Assembly: GCF_025979705.1 (NCBI RefSeq)
Contig: NZ_CP110136.1
Location: 1,178,001-1,242,000, forward strand
Length of the DNA stretch: 64,000 bases
From: Hymenobacter sp. YIM 151858-1
GTDB lineage: Bacteria; Bacteroidota; Bacteroidia; Cytophagales; Hymenobacteraceae
Direction of reading: 5' to 3'
Position 1 is the stretch's first letter, and the number at the start of each line of letters is the position of its first letter. The notes beneath the pieces are model-generated. The model did not search any database. It saw nothing but the letters and a program-made list of their open reading frames with translations, and had not been told where the DNA came from. Positions 1 through 38,904 of this stretch are shown one piece after another. Both the position numbers and the translations under genes were made by a program.

Positions 1-1286
1 GCCCGCCGGGCCACAAATCGGCGTACACGTTTGAGAAAGGAATGTTCTCGCAACACCGGCTCATCGGCGTCGATGGCACACAATCCCGACAAGTCGCAAG
101 TGCCGTCGGCTTCGAGCACCTGACGGGCGCCTTTACTGAGTTGTGGCAATTGGCTCAGGTGGTCGGACGACAAAGCGGCGGGCTTGCAATACCAGTCGGG
201 GTGTGCTTGCAACTTGGTTTTATCATCCCCGGTAAGCCAACGTTCGTAACCAAGCCAGTCGCAGTTACTACACAAGCCACAGACGTGGTAATCAATTGTT
301 GTCCAGCCATGCGCCGCAGCCTGATCAAGAACCCGTAGCACATCCTGCTTTAGGAAGCGGACGACACTGGGTGCAACAACCGAAAACTCGACTTTTTCGA
401 GCGTGTCTAGGATAACCTGAAACTTTTGCTCGGTAGTAACGCCAGCATGGCTGGCCAGCAACGCGTCGAGGGCCGGCTTTTCTTGGTGTGTCCATAGAAA
501 GCACTCGTCGGACACGAAGTAGTCGTTCTGTAAGCCATTTTCCTCTAACCAGTTGGCCAGCACAATGCTGTACAACACCACTTCAGCGGCGTAGCTCTTG
601 TTGCCCTCCGCAGTGTTTTTTACATCCACCACACTCAAGGCAAGGCGCGGCTCCGTGGCGGGTAGGCGTCGGCGTTTGCCTGTGGGCATGACTTCCCATA
701 ACAGACCGGTATTGGGCCGTACCAGCACAATATCAGGTCGCATTCCCTGCAGAGCCGGAAAATGAAGCACCTGCGTTGGGGTAAGACCCAGGTTCTGCTC
801 GAGCAGTCGTGAACGGAAATCCTCAGGCTCGATGGCAGGCTGCAAGCACAAGCCCGGAGTCGGCACCGCACGTAATGCGCGTACCAAGTCTATCTCATCG
901 AACTTTCCGTCGGCCTTCTTTTTGGCTTGCACGGTTGGAGTACCAAACATGTTGACCAACATGTTGTACTCGTGGTCCTCAAACTCTACGCCGGCCGCTG
1001 TTACCAACTGAATATTGGGACGGGCGCTGAGTGGCACCGGAATCCCAGCGGCCTCTAATATTGCGTGGCTGTTGGACTTGAATAACGAAAAGAATAGCTC
1101 ACGGTCACAGTTTGTACGCAGGTACATAGACAAGGTAGACTTGCCTATTTTGGCGGGCGGGAAAGAAGGCACTGGGCGGATATCTAGGTTATTGACGAAC
1201 CAAGTGAAAATCGTACTCGACGGCCGCAGTTGAAGCAGCGGCCATCTGAGCGGCTTGACGTTTACCGGAGTGGGCTGTTTGGGCAT
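1..1286 (-). CDS. RecB/Dna2-type Fe-S nuclease (likely nuclease-helicase), partial
   Basis: An open frame runs leftward without a stop from an ATG at 1286 to the window edge (at least 428 residues). Near residues 50-68 is the motif MYLRTNCDRELFFSLF, typical of RecB/Cas4/Dna2 nucleases. A PD-(D/E)XK core follows: PDIVLV with D185, then VVDVK with D221 and K223, then a Y-x3-E helix. Cys60 and a C-terminal set C336, C339, C342 and C367 have the one-plus-three layout of the 4Fe-4S cluster of AddB, Dna2 and Cas4. Residues 370-395 (DHLSQLPQLSKGAR) resemble the hairpin region before the helicase in TM0106-like RecB-helicase fusions; a helicase domain outside the window is inference. The chosen start overlaps the methyltransferase gene by 98 bp, so a later GTG near 1170 is possible. 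Confidence 0.72.
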   Translation of the reverse strand, partial: MPKQPTPVNVKPLRWPLLQLRPSSTIFTWFVNNLDIRPVPSFPPAKIGKSTLSMYLRTNCDRELFFSLFKSNSHAILEAAGIPVPLSARPNIQLVTAAGVEFEDHEYNMLVNMFGTPTVQAKKKADGKFDEIDLVRALRAVPTPGLCLQPAIEPEDFRSRLLEQNLGLTPTQVLHFPALQGMRPDIVLVRPNTGLLWEVMPTGKRRRLPATEPRLALSVVDVKNTAEGNKSYAAEVVLYSIVLANWLEENGLQNDYFVSDECFLWTHQEKPALDALLASHAGVTTEQKFQVILDTLEKVEFSVVAPSVVRFLKQDVLRVLDQAAAHGWTTIDYHVCGLCSNCDWLGYERWLTGDDKTKLQAHPDWYCKPAALSSDHLSQLPQLSKGARQVLEADGTCDLSGLCAIDADEPVLREHSFLKRVRRFVARR

Positions 1287-34105: not shown

Positions 34106-34957
34106 TCAACTAATCATTTTCTCGATGGGCAACACCAGAATGCCTTCGGCGCCTACGGCTTTCAGCTGATCGGTAACATGCCAGAAGTCGTCCTCATTCA
34201 CCACCGATTGCACCGACACCCAGCCTTGCTCGGCCAGCGGCGTAACCGTGGGCGACTTGATGCCTGGCAGCAGCGCCTTCACGGCATCGAGCGAGGCCAC
34301 GGGGGCGTTCAGCACAATGTACTTGTTGCGGCGGGCGCGGCGCACGGCCTGCATCCGAAACTGCAGCTGCTCCAGCAGGGCCTGCTTTTCGGGCGAAAGC
34401 GCGCGGTTGGCAATCAGCACGGCTTCGGAGCGGAATACGGTTTCCACCTCGCGCAGGCCGTTGCCCAGCAGCGTCGAGCCCGACGACACGATGTCGCAGA
34501 TGGCGTCGGCCAGCCCAATGCTCGGGGCAATTTCCACGGAGCCACTGATGGTGTGCAGGTTGGCTTGTACGCCGTGCCCGGCCAGGTACGTGCCCAGGAT
34601 TTGCGGGTACGAGGTAGCAATGTTCTTGCCCTGCAAATCGGCCACCGAGGCGTAGGCCTCGCCGCGCGGCACGGCCAACGACAGGCGGCACTTGCTGAAT
34701 CCCAGGGGCTCTACCTCCAGCTCGGGCAGGCCGGCTTCTACCAGCACGTTCTGGCCTACCACGCCTAGGTCGGCCACGCCATCCTGCACGTAGCCGGGAA
34801 TGTCGTCGTCGCGCAGGTAAAGGATTTCGAGGGGGAAGTTGGTGGCTTCGGTTTTGAGCTTGTAGGAGGAGCTAACGAAGCTAATGCCACACTCGCGAAT
34901 CAAGGACAAAGAGTCTTCGCTGAGGCGGCCCGATTTCTGGATTGCCAGACGGATCAT
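34106..34957 (-). CDS. hisG: ATP phosphoribosyltransferase, long form
   Basis: This 283-residue enzyme catalyses the first step of histidine synthesis. It starts MIRLAIQKSGRLSEDSLSLI and contains DDDIPGYVQDGVADLGVVGQ and DIVSSGSTLLGNGL, the PRPP-binding loop. The last 75 residues (PTVTPLAEQGWVSVQSVV and on) are the ACT-like regulatory domain of the long form, so it should be a hexamer inhibited by histidine and needs no HisZ. It is the first structural gene, preceded by a 180-base leader after the leader peptide. Confidence 0.96.
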   Translation of the reverse strand: MIRLAIQKSGRLSEDSLSLIRECGISFVSSSYKLKTEATNFPLEILYLRDDDIPGYVQDGVADLGVVGQNVLVEAGLPELEVEPLGFSKCRLSLAVPRGEAYASVADLQGKNIATSYPQILGTYLAGHGVQANLHTISGSVEIAPSIGLADAICDIVSSGSTLLGNGLREVETVFRSEAVLIANRALSPEKQALLEQLQFRMQAVRRARRNKYIVLNAPVASLDAVKALLPGIKSPTVTPLAEQGWVSVQSVVNEDDFWHVTDQLKAVGAEGILVLPIEKMIS

Positions 34958-34995
34958 GAACAGGAAACAGTAACAACGGGAAACGACGCCAGCTA

Positions 34996-35012
34996 GCAGC
35001 CGCAACGGCTGC
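34996..35012 (-). other. Hairpin in the hisG leader
   Basis: A perfect 7-bp stem GCAGCCG/CGGCTGC with a 3-base loop lies about 40 bases before the hisG start. The RNA after it is U-rich but interrupted (TTTCCCGTTGTTACTGTTTCC), so this is only a weak terminator candidate for the attenuator. Confidence 0.45.
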
Positions 35013-35104
35013 ACGAGTACGCAGAACGCCAGAAATTGAAAAGGGTGCCGGGTGCGGTAAGCCTAGGTGGGTTACGCAATTGCCAAACCGGCTGGGGCGA
35101 CGTA

Positions 35105-35160
35105 GGTTCGGACCGTAGCCGAACACTTATACGTAATTTATTCCTCTCCCGTGGAGGAAT
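35105..35160 (-). promoter_or_regulatory. Hairpins at the end of the his leader peptide (attenuator region)
   Basis: A perfect 7-bp stem ATTCCTC/GAGGAAT (35140-35160) lies directly after the five His codons and covers the leader stop codon. A second stem GTTCGG/CCGAAC (35105-35123) follows. A ribosome stalled at the His run would cover or disturb the first stem, as expected for attenuation. Confidence 0.6.
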
Positions 35161-35251
35161 GGTGGTGATGATGGCCGGCATGCCCGTGTGCGGCAGCCCA
35201 ACGCGGGGCAACCGGCAACAAGGTGGTGCGCAATAAAGCAGCTAGGGGCAT
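35138..35251 (-). CDS. hisL: Histidine operon leader peptide
   Basis: A 37-codon frame starts at ATG 35251 (MPLAALLRTTLLPVAPRW), continues AAAHGHAGHHHHHSSTGEE and stops at 35138-35140. Seven of 37 residues are His, five in a row (codons at 35159-35173). It lies 14 bases downstream of a TACCTTTG promoter box and 180 bases upstream of hisG, with hairpins right after the His run. This is the layout of the enteric hisL attenuator: low histidyl-tRNA stalls the ribosome at the His codons and changes the RNA fold. Its position in front of a full his operon makes chance unlikely. The translation start and regulatory action are inferred. Confidence 0.82.
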   Translation of the reverse strand: MPLAALLRTTLLPVAPRWAAAHGHAGHHHHHSSTGEE

Positions 35252-35270
35252 GCGGCAGGAATGAGTTGCG

Positions 35271-35278
35271 CAAAGGTA
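35271..35278 (-). promoter_or_regulatory. TACCTTTG promoter of the his operon
   Basis: TACCTTTG on the minus strand matches the Bacteroidota -7 box. A TTG about 22 bases further upstream fits the -33 element. The predicted start of transcription, near 35264, is just before the leader peptide ATG. Confidence 0.7.
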
Positions 35279-35438
35279 AACAGCGGAACGATTTTCGCAA
35301 GTGCCGTTTTTTTCGCGCCGGCCGAAAGTTAACGCTCACATGATGATGTGGTTTTAAACTCTCGCGCTTTCGGCTTGTCGTATCTTGGCACCAGAAACCT
35401 CGCCCCGAACGTTGCTACCCCACCACCTGCATCAGCTT

Positions 35439-36299
35439 ATGTCGCGCGTATTATGTTTTCTTCTGGCGTTAGGGTTGTGTATAGCGGTTGCCCAGGCGCA
35501 GCAGTTTACGCTGCCGCAAGCCAGCCCCCATGCCCTCGTCAGCCAAACCGTGGGCCTTACCGAAATAGCCGTTGATTACCATACGCCCGCCGTCCGCAAC
35601 CGCGCCATTTGGGGCCAACTAGTGCCCTACGACCAGGTGTGGCGCGCCGGGGCCAACGAAAACACGGTTATTTCCTTCTCCGATTCGGTGCGCATCGGTA
35701 CCCAAACCGTGCCGGCCGGCAAGTACTCGCTGTTCGTGCTACCATCGGCCGAGCACGACTGGCAGTTTATCCTGAACAAGGTAACCACCCACTGGGGCGC
35801 CGAGGGCTACGACGCCAAAAACGACCAGCTGCGCGTGCCCGTGATGCCCGAGCAAACCGCCATGCACGAAACCCTGGTGTACTGGTTTTCCGACGTGCGG
35901 CCCAACTCGGCCAAGCTGAATTTGTCGTGGGAGCAGAAAACCATTTCCGTCGTCATCCGCACCAACGTGCACGCCAAGGTGCTTAGCGCCATGCAAACGG
36001 CCCTAACCGAGCGCCCCAACGATGCGCAGCTGCTGGCCCAGGCTGCCGATTACCTCATCCAGAACCGGCTGGAGGCCGAATTGGCGCTGCGCTACATCAA
36101 CCGGGCCATTGAGCTGAACGACAGCTACACCAACAACTGGCTGAAAGCCCGCCTGATGGCCCAAAAGGAAGATTACCTGACAGCTGTAGAAATTGCCCGC
36201 CGCGCTATCAAAATGGGCGATAAAGACGACGAATCGTTCAAGCATCAGCTGCCCAACATGCGCCTGGCCCTTACCGAATGGCAGTCGAAAGCCTACTAG
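35439..36299 (+). CDS. DUF2911 protein with TPR-like tail
   Basis: This 286-residue protein has a signal peptide (MSRVLCFLLALGLCIAVAQA). The DUF2911 domain covers about residues 22-180: SPHALVSQTVGLTEIAVDYH, RAIWGQLVPYDQVWRAGANE, the FSDSV strand and PAGKYSLFVLP. The rest is helical with TPR-like repeats (EAELALRYINRAIELNDSYT). DUF2911 proteins are common secreted or periplasmic proteins in Bacteroidota with no known function. The chosen start gives a proper signal peptide. Confidence 0.88.
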   Translation: MSRVLCFLLALGLCIAVAQAQQFTLPQASPHALVSQTVGLTEIAVDYHTPAVRNRAIWGQLVPYDQVWRAGANENTVISFSDSVRIGTQTVPAGKYSLFVLPSAEHDWQFILNKVTTHWGAEGYDAKNDQLRVPVMPEQTAMHETLVYWFSDVRPNSAKLNLSWEQKTISVVIRTNVHAKVLSAMQTALTERPNDAQLLAQAADYLIQNRLEAELALRYINRAIELNDSYTNNWLKARLMAQKEDYLTAVEIARRAIKMGDKDDESFKHQLPNMRLALTEWQSKAY

Positions 36300-36372: not shown

Positions 36373-38904
36373 CTAAAACCGGGCAATTACCCGCAGGTTG
36401 ATGACGCGCTGCGACAGGTAATTGGGCACGCCGTAGGTGGTACCGTTCAGGTCCTGAATGTAGCTGTAGCCGGCCACGTTGTTGGCCGCCAGCACGTTCA
36501 GGATTTCCAGACCCATCCAAATGCTTTCGGGTTCGTAAAAGCGCCGCTGCTGATCGGTGCGCAGGCTCAGCACTTTGGAAAACCCTAGGTCGACGCGCTT
36601 GTAGCTGCGGGTGAGCTTGCTGGTACCGCGCAGCTCGGGCAAACCCGGCGGGCTGAACGGCAGGCCCGTGCCGAAAACCACGTTCACGTAGCCGCGCACC
36701 GAGGGGTTGTCGGGCAAATGGTCCTGGAAGAATATGCCCAGGTTCAGGCGCTGGTCGCTGGGCCGCCGGATGTAGCCCTTTTCCTTGCGGCCGACGATGT
36801 TACCTAGGGAGTCGTACTGCGTGATGAAGTCGCCGCGCAGGTTTTCGCGGGTGGTCAGCACGCCCAGGCTAAACCACGATTCGGCCCCGCGCACAAACTC
36901 GCCGCTGAAGCGCGCATCGAAGCCGGCGGCGTAGGCCGTGGCCAGGTTCTGGCCGAAGTAGCGCAGGCGCACGTTGTCGACGTCGTACGGAATAACGTCG
37001 GTGAGGTACTTAAAATACGCTTCGGTCGTGAGCTGAAACGGGCGGCCGGCAGCTTTCAGGCGATACTCGCTTCCGACGATAAAATGCGCGGAGCGTTGGG
37101 CCCGCAGGTCGCGGTTGAGCACGCCCAGCTGGTTGCGCAGCTCGCGGTAAAACGGCGGCTGGTAGTACAAGCCCGCGGCCGCTTTGTACGACAGCCGCGG
37201 GTTGCGGCGGCTGATGGCCGAATACTGCACCCGCGGGCTTACCGTGAGCTGGTTGTTGACGGACCAATAGTGCAAACGTACCCCGTAGGTAAGCGTCCGC
37301 AACGAATCGAGCCGCCACGTGTGCTGCCCGTAGCCCTGCACCCGCGCCGATTCAAGGTTCAGATCGGTGCGCAGGCGCGTGAAACGCTGGGCCGGCACAA
37401 AGTCGGCCGAGTCGACAAACGCGTACTCGTCGAGGCGGTCGTCGATGTTCTCGCGCCCGCCCTTCAGCCCGAAGCGCAGCGTGTGCCGCTCCGAGGGTTG
37501 GTAGGTGGTGCGCGCTTCGAGGGTGGCCAGCCAGGCATCGAGGCGGTTGCGCGAGTGGTCGAAGCGTGAGCCCACGTTGCGCTGCCGCACGGCCTGGTTA
37601 AACGTGCGCGAGCTAGGGTCGCGGTCGATATCGGCCAGGCGGTACGCAGCCTCTACATCCCGAAACTCCCATTCGCGCGTAAGCAGGCCGCCGGCCAGCA
37701 GCTCGGCGGTGAGACGGGGCGTGAAGTGGTGCGTCAGGTTCAGGCCGCCCTGGTACGTATCGTACTGCATGCGCTCGTAGCCGGCGTAGCCGATAAACAG
37801 GCGCTGAAACTCGTTGGTACCGGTGCTGAAGGTAACCTGCCCGCTCTGGGGCGCAAACCGAAAGTTGTTGCGCGCCGCCGAGGCCAGCAGCCCCAGGCTG
37901 GTGCGCTGCAGGTCGTCTTTCGGACCTAGGGCGGCGCGCACGTACACTTGCCCATCCACAAACGTGGGGTCGTAAGCGCCCTGGGCGCCGCGCAACGAGC
38001 GCAGCACGTACTGCGCGTTTTTGTAGCGCGCACCGGCCAGGTAGCTTACCCGCCCCGATTTCGAAACCGACTCGACGTGCGCCGCCCCGCCTACCAGGCT
38101 GCCCGTTACCGATGCGGCCGGGCGCGTGGGCTGTTTGTACTCGATGTTGAGCACCGAGGAGAGCTTATCACCGAAGCGCGGCTGCCACCCGCCGGAAGTG
38201 AAATCGACGCGCTCCACAAGGTCGGGGTTCACGAAGCTCAGGCCCTCCTGCTGCGCTGCCGTTACCAGAAACGGCCGGTAAATCTCGATGCCGTTGACGT
38301 AAACGAGGTTTTCGTCGTAGTTGCCGCCGCGTACCGAGTAGGTGCTCGTCAGCTCGTTGTTGGCCACCACGCCCGGCAGCGTCGTCAGTACTTTATTAAA
38401 GTCGCCGAATGCCGAGGGTACTTCCTTGATGGCGCGCGGGTCGAGCTGCGTCAGGCTGATTTGCTCGCGCGTGTCTTCGCCGCGCTGCCCGCGCACCGTT
38501 ACGTTATCAATGGTGCGGGCGCTGCTTTGCAGCGTGAGACGCAGGGTTGCCCGGCCGTCGCTAAGCTCTTCCGCCGTGAGGCTGCGCCGCAGCGTGGTGT
38601 AACCTAGGCGGCGCACCACCAGTACCAGCGGCTGGCCGGCGGGCGGGCGGGCTACCGTCAGCCGAAATTCGCCGGCTTCGTTGGTGTTGGTGCCCCCGGC
38701 CTGGCCCTCTACGGCTACGGCTACCTGCTCCAGGGCGCGGCCGTTGGCTTCGTACACGGTGCCGCTGAGCTCCACGGTTGCCGCGGGTTGCTGCTGGGCA
38801 AAGCCCGCAGTAACGGATACCGCAGCCGCAGCCGGCAAGCACAATAAGCCCCGCACCACTACCACCGACCACCCGTGCTTTCGACGACGACGACTTGCGC
38901 CCAT
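36373..38904 (-). CDS. TonB-dependent receptor with CarboxypepD_reg-like domain
   Basis: This 843-residue outer-membrane protein has a signal peptide near residues 12-37, then a carboxypeptidase-regulatory-like beta domain (VELSGTVYEANGRALEQVAV, residues about 44-130). A plug follows (FGDFNKVLTTLPGVVANNEL, TYSVRGGNYDENLVYVNGIE), then a 22-strand barrel ending VINLRVIARF with a C-terminal aromatic residue. It is not SusC-like in length and has no SusD partner. It is likely a transporter of a siderophore, vitamin or small peptide, but the ligand is unknown. Its start codon overlaps the rpe stop by one base (TAATG). Confidence 0.88.
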   Translation of the reverse strand: MGASRRRRKHGWSVVVVRGLLCLPAAAAVSVTAGFAQQQPAATVELSGTVYEANGRALEQVAVAVEGQAGGTNTNEAGEFRLTVARPPAGQPLVLVVRRLGYTTLRRSLTAEELSDGRATLRLTLQSSARTIDNVTVRGQRGEDTREQISLTQLDPRAIKEVPSAFGDFNKVLTTLPGVVANNELTSTYSVRGGNYDENLVYVNGIEIYRPFLVTAAQQEGLSFVNPDLVERVDFTSGGWQPRFGDKLSSVLNIEYKQPTRPAASVTGSLVGGAAHVESVSKSGRVSYLAGARYKNAQYVLRSLRGAQGAYDPTFVDGQVYVRAALGPKDDLQRTSLGLLASAARNNFRFAPQSGQVTFSTGTNEFQRLFIGYAGYERMQYDTYQGGLNLTHHFTPRLTAELLAGGLLTREWEFRDVEAAYRLADIDRDPSSRTFNQAVRQRNVGSRFDHSRNRLDAWLATLEARTTYQPSERHTLRFGLKGGRENIDDRLDEYAFVDSADFVPAQRFTRLRTDLNLESARVQGYGQHTWRLDSLRTLTYGVRLHYWSVNNQLTVSPRVQYSAISRRNPRLSYKAAAGLYYQPPFYRELRNQLGVLNRDLRAQRSAHFIVGSEYRLKAAGRPFQLTTEAYFKYLTDVIPYDVDNVRLRYFGQNLATAYAAGFDARFSGEFVRGAESWFSLGVLTTRENLRGDFITQYDSLGNIVGRKEKGYIRRPSDQRLNLGIFFQDHLPDNPSVRGYVNVVFGTGLPFSPPGLPELRGTSKLTRSYKRVDLGFSKVLSLRTDQQRRFYEPESIWMGLEILNVLAANNVAGYSYIQDLNGTTYGVPNYLSQRVINLRVIARF

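Follow-up and report, generated by a model that had tools for sequence, protein, structure and literature searches.

A histidine-codon leader ahead of the his operon in Hymenobacter and other Bacteroidota

In enteric bacteria, hisL is a short leader of His codons directly before hisG, with a hairpin at its stop codon and a chain of hairpins downstream. The 64-kb window studied here (the whole stretch of DNA that was analysed) resembles this enterobacterial arrangement (Rfam RF00514) in having a leader with consecutive His codons before hisG, a stop-codon hairpin and a hairpin chain, and differs from it in having no U-tract terminator and in having a Bacteroidota promoter 19 nt ahead of the leader ATG. 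The RF00514 His_leader model gave no match in the window at its gathering score and none at E <=10; the one Rfam match at E <=10 was a chance match to another family. A further RNA of the phylum, the Bacteroid-trp motif (RF01692), is linked to the trp operon and thus to a different operon from the window's his genes. Weinberg et al. 2010 (PMC2864571) list the motif among predicted cis-regulatory RNAs of Bacteroidetes; searched at its gathering score, the window gave no match to it. In Bacilli, histidine leader peptides with His codons as sensor precede hisZ and hisS (PMC2965389); the sensor is shared with the window, while the phylum and the genes are others. According to a 2016 paper, his regulation lies ahead of hisG in gamma-proteobacteria and ahead of hisZ in Firmicutes, and a 2021 paper about the his genes of Bacteroidota mentions attenuation for S. 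enterica and E. coli, the word 'leader' being absent from its accessible sections. No description of a his leader of Bacteroidota was found in the accessible parts of the openly licensed literature searched (including PMC2864571, PMC6429828, PMC8305728, PMC4833913, PMC7366714 and PMC2965389). As a kind, the His leader is old, and the window's form without a canonical terminator is a variant of it. The abstract of Vitreschak et al. 2004 (FEMS Microbiol Lett 234:357) reportedly mentions candidate attenuators in some Bacteroidetes/Chlorobi, so that the general idea may have been put forward there first.

The leader frame, its promoter and its conservation

The frame, at 35251-35138 on the minus strand, reads MPLAALLRTTLLPVAPRWAAAHGHAGHHHHHSSTGEE and has 37 codons, seven of them His, with five in a row (CAT CAT CAC CAC CAT, 35173-35159 (-)) that we presume to be the sensor; the sequence-only reading had described exactly this composition. 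Of the 1,149 frames of at least 10 codons collected from all six frames of the 64-kb window, hisL alone contained at least four consecutive His or five His in eight residues, and a run of five CAY codons occurred a single time in the window when both strands were scanned. The start of hisL lies 294 nt and its end 180 nt upstream of the hisG start (34957), and the his operon that follows is complete: hisG (34106-34957 (-), TIGR00070), hisD, hisC, a bifunctional hisB, hisH, hisA, hisF and hisIE, extending to 27280. Each of the eight genes matched an NCBIfam model above the cut-off (TIGR00070 and seven more), confirming the order hisG-D-C-B-H-A-F-IE, written hisGDCBHAFI in the sequence-only reading, whereas the hisL peptide matched none of the NCBIfam models. 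Codons of the regulated amino acid are thus found directly upstream of the operon, as required of the leader frame of a ribosome-mediated attenuator. Of the named genomes, Solirubrum puertoriconensis gave the best match, with a 99% identical HisG. Around the operon, a 19-pair hairpin directly past hisIE (27249-27205 (-)) is likely the operon terminator, the divergent neighbour (35439-36299 (+)) encodes a DUF2911 protein, and the next gene (36373-38904 (-)) encodes a protein with a TonB-dependent receptor plug domain.

Bacteroidota promoters follow a consensus of a TTG, a spacer and a TAnnTTTG-type box. An exact match to it, TTG-N19-TACCTTTG, is located at 35300-35271 (-), the box TACCTTTG itself at 35278-35271 ending 19 nt before the hisL ATG, so the promoter box that had been noted ahead of the frame is borne out. 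Six promoter matches of this kind occur in the 64-kb window, the leader promoter among them. In relatives, a TAnnTTTG box was detected ahead of the in-frame ATG in 122/160 leaders, at a median distance of 17 nt (121/160 at 60 nt or less), and the full TTG-N17-21 form in 73/160. Given this median, the 5´ UTR of the leader itself is expected to be very short. With the promoter upstream, leader and operon would lie on one transcript, as an attenuator requires.

To follow the leader across the phylum, hisG upstream regions were taken from 80 named genomes, from the window's family (HisG in 201/204 genomes, 90 used as loci) and from a phylum-wide draw (HisG in 103/118 genomes, 40 loci used). A frame with at least four His in eight residues was found upstream of hisG in 160/186 Bacteroidota regions, compared with one on the reverse strand and one in dinucleotide shuffles of the 186 regions; the 26 regions below the cut are kept in the count, and at least one counted leader (L053) looks spurious. 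Exact copies were removed among 148 of the 186 regions, the other 38 not being compared with those, and at least one shifted copy (L108 of L011) is left in the set. The groups named below (Pontibacter, Cyclobacteriaceae and others, and so on) were sorted by record names and not by a tree. This frequency against the controls identifies the frame as a hisL leader of a kind widespread in the phylum, and we are almost certain that the frame is hisL, a His-codon leader. Conservation of the His run in relatives, which had been set beforehand as the test of that identity, was indeed observed. Variable columns around the run in eight close sequences numbered 1, 1 and 5 at codon positions 1, 2 and 3, and this share of third positions (5/7) fits a translated frame. 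Among relatives, the N-terminal part of the leader varies freely, while the His cluster, the end of the frame and the RNA hairpin are kept. Seven family genomes stood out for HisG itself, with no match in G009, G010 and G016 and weak or multiple matches in G071, G072, G107 and G122; perhaps their his operon is lost or broken, or the assembly is incomplete.

Hairpins in the leader RNA

The His run leads into a hairpin, P1 (ATTCCTC-CACGGGA-GAGGAAT, 35160-35140 (-)), that is near-invariant among relatives. Its 7-bp stem (ATTCCTC 35160-35154, GAGGAAT 35146-35140) is exact, as the sequence-only reading had it; the accompanying statement that it directly follows the His run and covers the stop codon needs amending, as P1 overlaps the last two bases of the run and shares only base 35140 with the stop TAA (35140-35138). 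A search of the 4.6-Mb genome for ATTCCTC and GAGGAAT separated by 3-8 bases gave a single location. In main-type Hymenobacter the stop codon lies inside P1, and CATTCCTC-loop-GAGGAA directly follows the His run in 59/59 aligned sequences (59 of the 64 main-type sequences, near-copies removed; grouping by peptide also gives 64). This set was chosen by the P1 5´ arm, and the invariance of that arm is therefore partly by choice; the 3´ arm was free to vary. The same hairpin is present in Pontibacter, Rufibacter and several Cyclobacteriaceae. A stem enclosing the stop codon scored above the 95th percentile of shuffles in 9/9 leaders of the window's genus group, 64/64 main-type Hymenobacter, 21/23 of the Pontibacter group and 9/14 of the Cyclobacteriaceae and others, and in 0/23 other Hymenobacter, 0/5 of the Spirosoma group and 0/28 other Bacteroidota. 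In the folding model, the predicted probability of P1 in the window is 0.60-0.92 in short RNA and 0.01 once the RNA reaches hisG. P1, the stem named in the sequence-only reading, was rejected as the terminator; it is instead a hairpin at the leader's stop codon, with no U-tract behind it in the window, and the sequence after P1 was T-rich in 3/34 loci of the 'other' set (L068, L074 and L080; the row for L001 covers its last 27 nt only). In Adhaeribacter aerolatus (L044), the 5´ arm recurs further downstream, and in the predicted fold the P1 3´ arm pairs with this second copy (GAGGAATAAT with ATTATTCCTC) in place of P1, an arrangement of 1:2 against 2:3.

Downstream of P1, main-type Hymenobacter leaders contain a conserved CATAT-G-CCC stretch, then hairpins P2, P3 and P4. 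In the window, P2 (ACGTA / GTTCGG-CTACGGT-CCGAAC / TACGT, 35134-35100 (-)) is predicted by the folding model, the inner part with probability 0.98-1.00 in seven of eight modelled states and 0.59 in the eighth, the outer part with 0.00-0.81 over the eight; the inner pairs are compensated in a relative of the same genus (L093, ATCCGG/CCGGAT). Across the 59 Hymenobacter, arms fit better within than between species for P2 (z -11.7), P3 (z -5.5) and P4 (z -4.9), compared with z 0.8 for an unrelated segment pair. Pair counting in the same set found changes on both sides for 13 pairs, with 87.4% of cells paired, and 0/500 shuffles, which ignore relatedness, were as high on either measure; sliding the alignment by 1-3 columns lowered the paired cells to 42-59%. 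P4 is weak, with 58% of cells paired, and since P1 hardly varies, the covariation test says little about it. The window's genus retains P1 and P2, while P3 and P4 are not recognisable there by alignment. In main-type Hymenobacter, about 70 nt or more separate the end of the conserved structured part from hisG, and this remainder is poorly conserved.

A covariance model built from the Hymenobacter leader matched 27/71 sources at E <=0.01 (Pontibacter, Rufibacter, one Adhaeribacter and some Cyclobacteriaceae) and no LWG-type Hymenobacter; the window itself scored 18.1 bits (E 0.16). A genome search with this model matched 0/149, and because the window's own genome is among the 149, that search is uninformative. 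Besides P2, only weak covarying partners were seen. In a sliding search over 396 segment pairs per group in the Cytophagales (30 main-type sequences sampled), P2 ranked first in both groups and other pairings were weak: P1+24..35 and P1+12..23 with P1+42 in Hymenobacter (z -4.8, -4.0 and -2.9 kcal/mol), and P1+4..15 with P1+70 in the Pontibacter group (z -4.4, -4.7 kcal/mol). An antiterminator formed by the P1 3´ arm and the P2 arms was rejected (z -2.5 at -3.9 kcal/mol for columns 17-31 against 46-58, and z 0.8 for the same columns against 66-78), as was CCC:GGG as a covarying alternative hairpin (z +2.9).

Terminators and antiterminators before hisG

No canonical intrinsic terminator (GC hairpin plus U-tract) was found between hisL and hisG in a scan of 34900-35400, while the same scan detected strong ones elsewhere, such as the hairpin at 27249-27205 (-); the earlier remark that the terminator is not a classic one fits these scans. 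The groups were compared by one criterion throughout, a hairpin plus U-tract at -12 kcal/mol or better, with shuffles expressed as fractions. Such terminators were not above chance in the genus group (0/9, shuffles 0.07) or in main-type Hymenobacter (3/64, shuffles 0.02), were seen in 0/23 of the Pontibacter group (0.01), 0/14 Cyclobacteriaceae and others (0.00) and 0/5 of the Spirosoma group (0.00), and were detected in 7/23 other Hymenobacter, mostly of LWG type (0.06). At -8 kcal/mol the genus group (0/9, shuffles 0.19) and main-type Hymenobacter (10/64, shuffles 0.15) were again not above chance; the Pontibacter group gave 4/23 vs 0.03 and the LWG group 16/23 vs 0.29. Weak hairpins with a T-rich tail, at any strength, were found in 0.70 of the Pontibacter group vs 0.20 of shuffles, with a slight excess in main-type Hymenobacter (0.61 vs 0.45) and the genus group (0.78 vs 0.67); by a separate criterion, a small hairpin with a T-rich tail was present in 2/9 genus-group leaders. 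As weak T-tailed hairpins are commoner than in shuffles, degenerate terminators are quite possible.

One candidate terminator-like element in the window (35092-35032 (-)) would pair GCCGG (35092-35088) with CCGGC (35051-35047) and has the tail ACCCTTTTCAATTTC, resembling the hairpin and U-rich tail of LWG-type Hymenobacter. The folding model gives its stem a probability of 0.38-0.57 over eight states (0.51 and 0.55 when the ribosome occupies the last His, 0.56 both times when it occupies the stop). A second hairpin, GCAGCCG-TTG-CGGCTGC (35012-34996 (-), about 40 nt before hisG), is a strong predicted fold of doubtful role; as an attenuator it was rejected, being conserved in the closest sequences only. 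Equilibrium folding revealed no ribosome-dependent refolding in the window and no ribosome-dependent switch in P2, P3 or P4 of the 59 relatives, where mean P2 was 0.64 free, rose to 0.74 for a ribosome halted at the last His and was 0.56 for one at the stop, opposite to what antitermination would need, and stalled vs stop values were 0.89 vs 0.87 for P3 and 0.17 vs 0.20 for P4. The whole leader RNA of the window folded no better than shuffles (z -0.03).

The his leaders of other Bacteroidota share the His-dense frame with the window and, unlike it, mostly carry a strong intrinsic terminator (-12 kcal/mol or better) before hisG, in 20/28 leaders vs 0.00 in shuffles; two leaders of the Cytophagales HHSS type (L173 and L175), neither with a terminator, are excluded from this group. 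Over the 30 loci with a His-dense frame among L173-L210, 22/30 had any terminator by the criterion applied. In the 20 terminator-bearing leaders, the segment 0-17 nt past the last His codon pairs with the terminator 5´ arm at a mean of -14.5 kcal/mol, compared with -7.6 in shuffles and -9.4 with the arm of another species; the species match holds for the set (z -7.6, 0/2000 permutations), and taken singly 4/20 have a shuffle p of 0.06-0.08. Judged by sequence, this layout of leader, matched antiterminator and terminator is that of a classical attenuator. These terminators and antiterminators indicate that the classical form is widespread in the phylum and that the window's lineage departs from it. 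The sequence-only reading's 'textbook attenuator layout' accordingly describes the other Bacteroidota rather than the window's lineage: for the window, scans gave no canonical terminator and equilibrium folding no ribosome-dependent refolding, the latter in the 59 relatives as well. Of seven other-Bacteroidota loci searched with Rfam His_leader, 0/7 reached the gathering score; three scored below threshold (best 33.9 bits vs a gathering score of 49), and two of these three scored higher with Leu_leader.

LWG-type leaders (L016-L020, L149, L153, L156 and others) end in HHHHLWGAGLCAGC or similar. A long helix directly 3´ of the His run was found in 21/23 of this group (L017 and L161 were not caught), with a mean of -22.8 kcal/mol and z -2.3 for own vs swapped arms, and a hairpin with a U-rich 20-nt tail in 16/18, chosen by the tail and without a control (L152 and L168 gave no candidate). 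An antiterminator matched to the terminator was indistinguishable from the GC-rich background in the LWG group (own -20.35, shuffled -21.02, swapped z -0.6). The LWG-type stop codon lies in an unrelated hairpin, for example GGTGCTAG/CTAGCACC, within the long helix that starts right after the His run; with the high GC content, the score of this hairpin was not above shuffles.

Output of the leader and competing explanations

Very probably, hisL lets ribosomes sense a shortage of histidine and switch the his genes on. We put at roughly 0.7 the probability that it is the sensor of a ribosome-mediated attenuation whose output is transcription attenuation in one form or another. Comparison with relatives establishes the leader frame, the promoter box, the conservation and the RNA hairpins as features of the sequence. 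Because equilibrium folding gave no switch, we regard the sensor as established by comparison and infer the output, which would comprise stalling, refolding and premature termination, with a degenerate terminator or another output. Transcription would begin shortly ahead of the hisL ATG. When charged tRNA-His is plentiful, the ribosome would pass the His run to the stop codon at P1, the downstream RNA would fold into P2 and a further GC-rich hairpin, and most transcription would end before hisG. When tRNA-His is scarce, the ribosome would stall on the His run and block P1, the downstream RNA would fold otherwise, and RNA polymerase would continue into hisGDCBHAFIE. Termination might be intrinsic with a degenerate U-tract, or Rho-assisted.

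A Rho-dependent attenuation, which overlaps with this explanation, would have Rho load onto the untranslated RNA ahead of hisG once the leader has been translated, except when a stalled ribosome alters that RNA. The absence of a canonical intrinsic terminator from the window is consistent with it, and so is the excess of C over G in the 75 nt before hisG in 62/64 main-type Hymenobacter, 14/14 Cyclobacteriaceae and others and 5/5 of the Spirosoma group. However, the window itself has a C/G of 0.95 there (43rd percentile of the window), so that a Rho signature was rejected for it, the genus group has C > G in 6/9, and the other Bacteroidota, most of which have intrinsic terminators, likewise show C > G in 20/28; we consider Rho unlikely as the output. 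The leader might instead sense histidine and act on hisG translation or mRNA stability rather than on termination. The strong hairpin about 40 nt ahead of hisG would suit such an output, in a window without a canonical terminator, in nearest groups without one above chance, and with terminator refolding seen in neither the window nor its relatives. That hairpin is limited to the closest sequences, though, the conserved structure of main-type Hymenobacter ends well upstream of hisG, pairing of the CATAT region with the hisG start is weak (Pontibacter group, z -3.4 at -2.35 kcal/mol), and terminators are present in other Bacteroidota, all of which makes a translational or stability output improbable in our view.

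Clusters rich in His can bind metals, and the frame could encode a small His-rich protein with a role of its own, such as metal binding, that merely adjoins hisG. Because hisG was the basis for choosing every locus, the set is silent on whether frames of this kind occur elsewhere; yet what relatives keep is the His cluster, the frame end and the RNA hairpin while the N-terminal part drifts, an attenuator stands at the same position in other Bacteroidota, and the stop-codon hairpin pattern is confined to one place in the genome. Such a protein is a very unlikely explanation, and a chance His run in non-coding sequence is next to impossible, given that 1/1,149 frames of the window and 160/186 hisG regions vs 1 + 1 in the controls are His-dense.

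It is conceivable, if doubtful, that the window's branch of the Cytophagales has replaced the terminator/antiterminator switch and kept the His sensor, the output running through the near-invariant stop-codon hairpin, then the conserved CATAT-CCC element and covarying hairpins that lack a proper U-tract. If true, this would be a ribosome-controlled output unlike known attenuators. The comparison indicates that much of the Bacteroidota has His-codon leaders ahead of the his operon, and these offer a natural way to test whether ribosomes and RNA polymerase work in concert in this phylum; since some lineages have a clear terminator and others do not, the output step can be tested directly.

Further TAnnTTTG boxes were noted between leader and hisG, at 24-47 nt ahead of hisG in L028, L030, L059, L031 and L044 and at 132-137 nt in L051, L057 and L062. 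Going by their sequence, these could be second, attenuation-free promoters.
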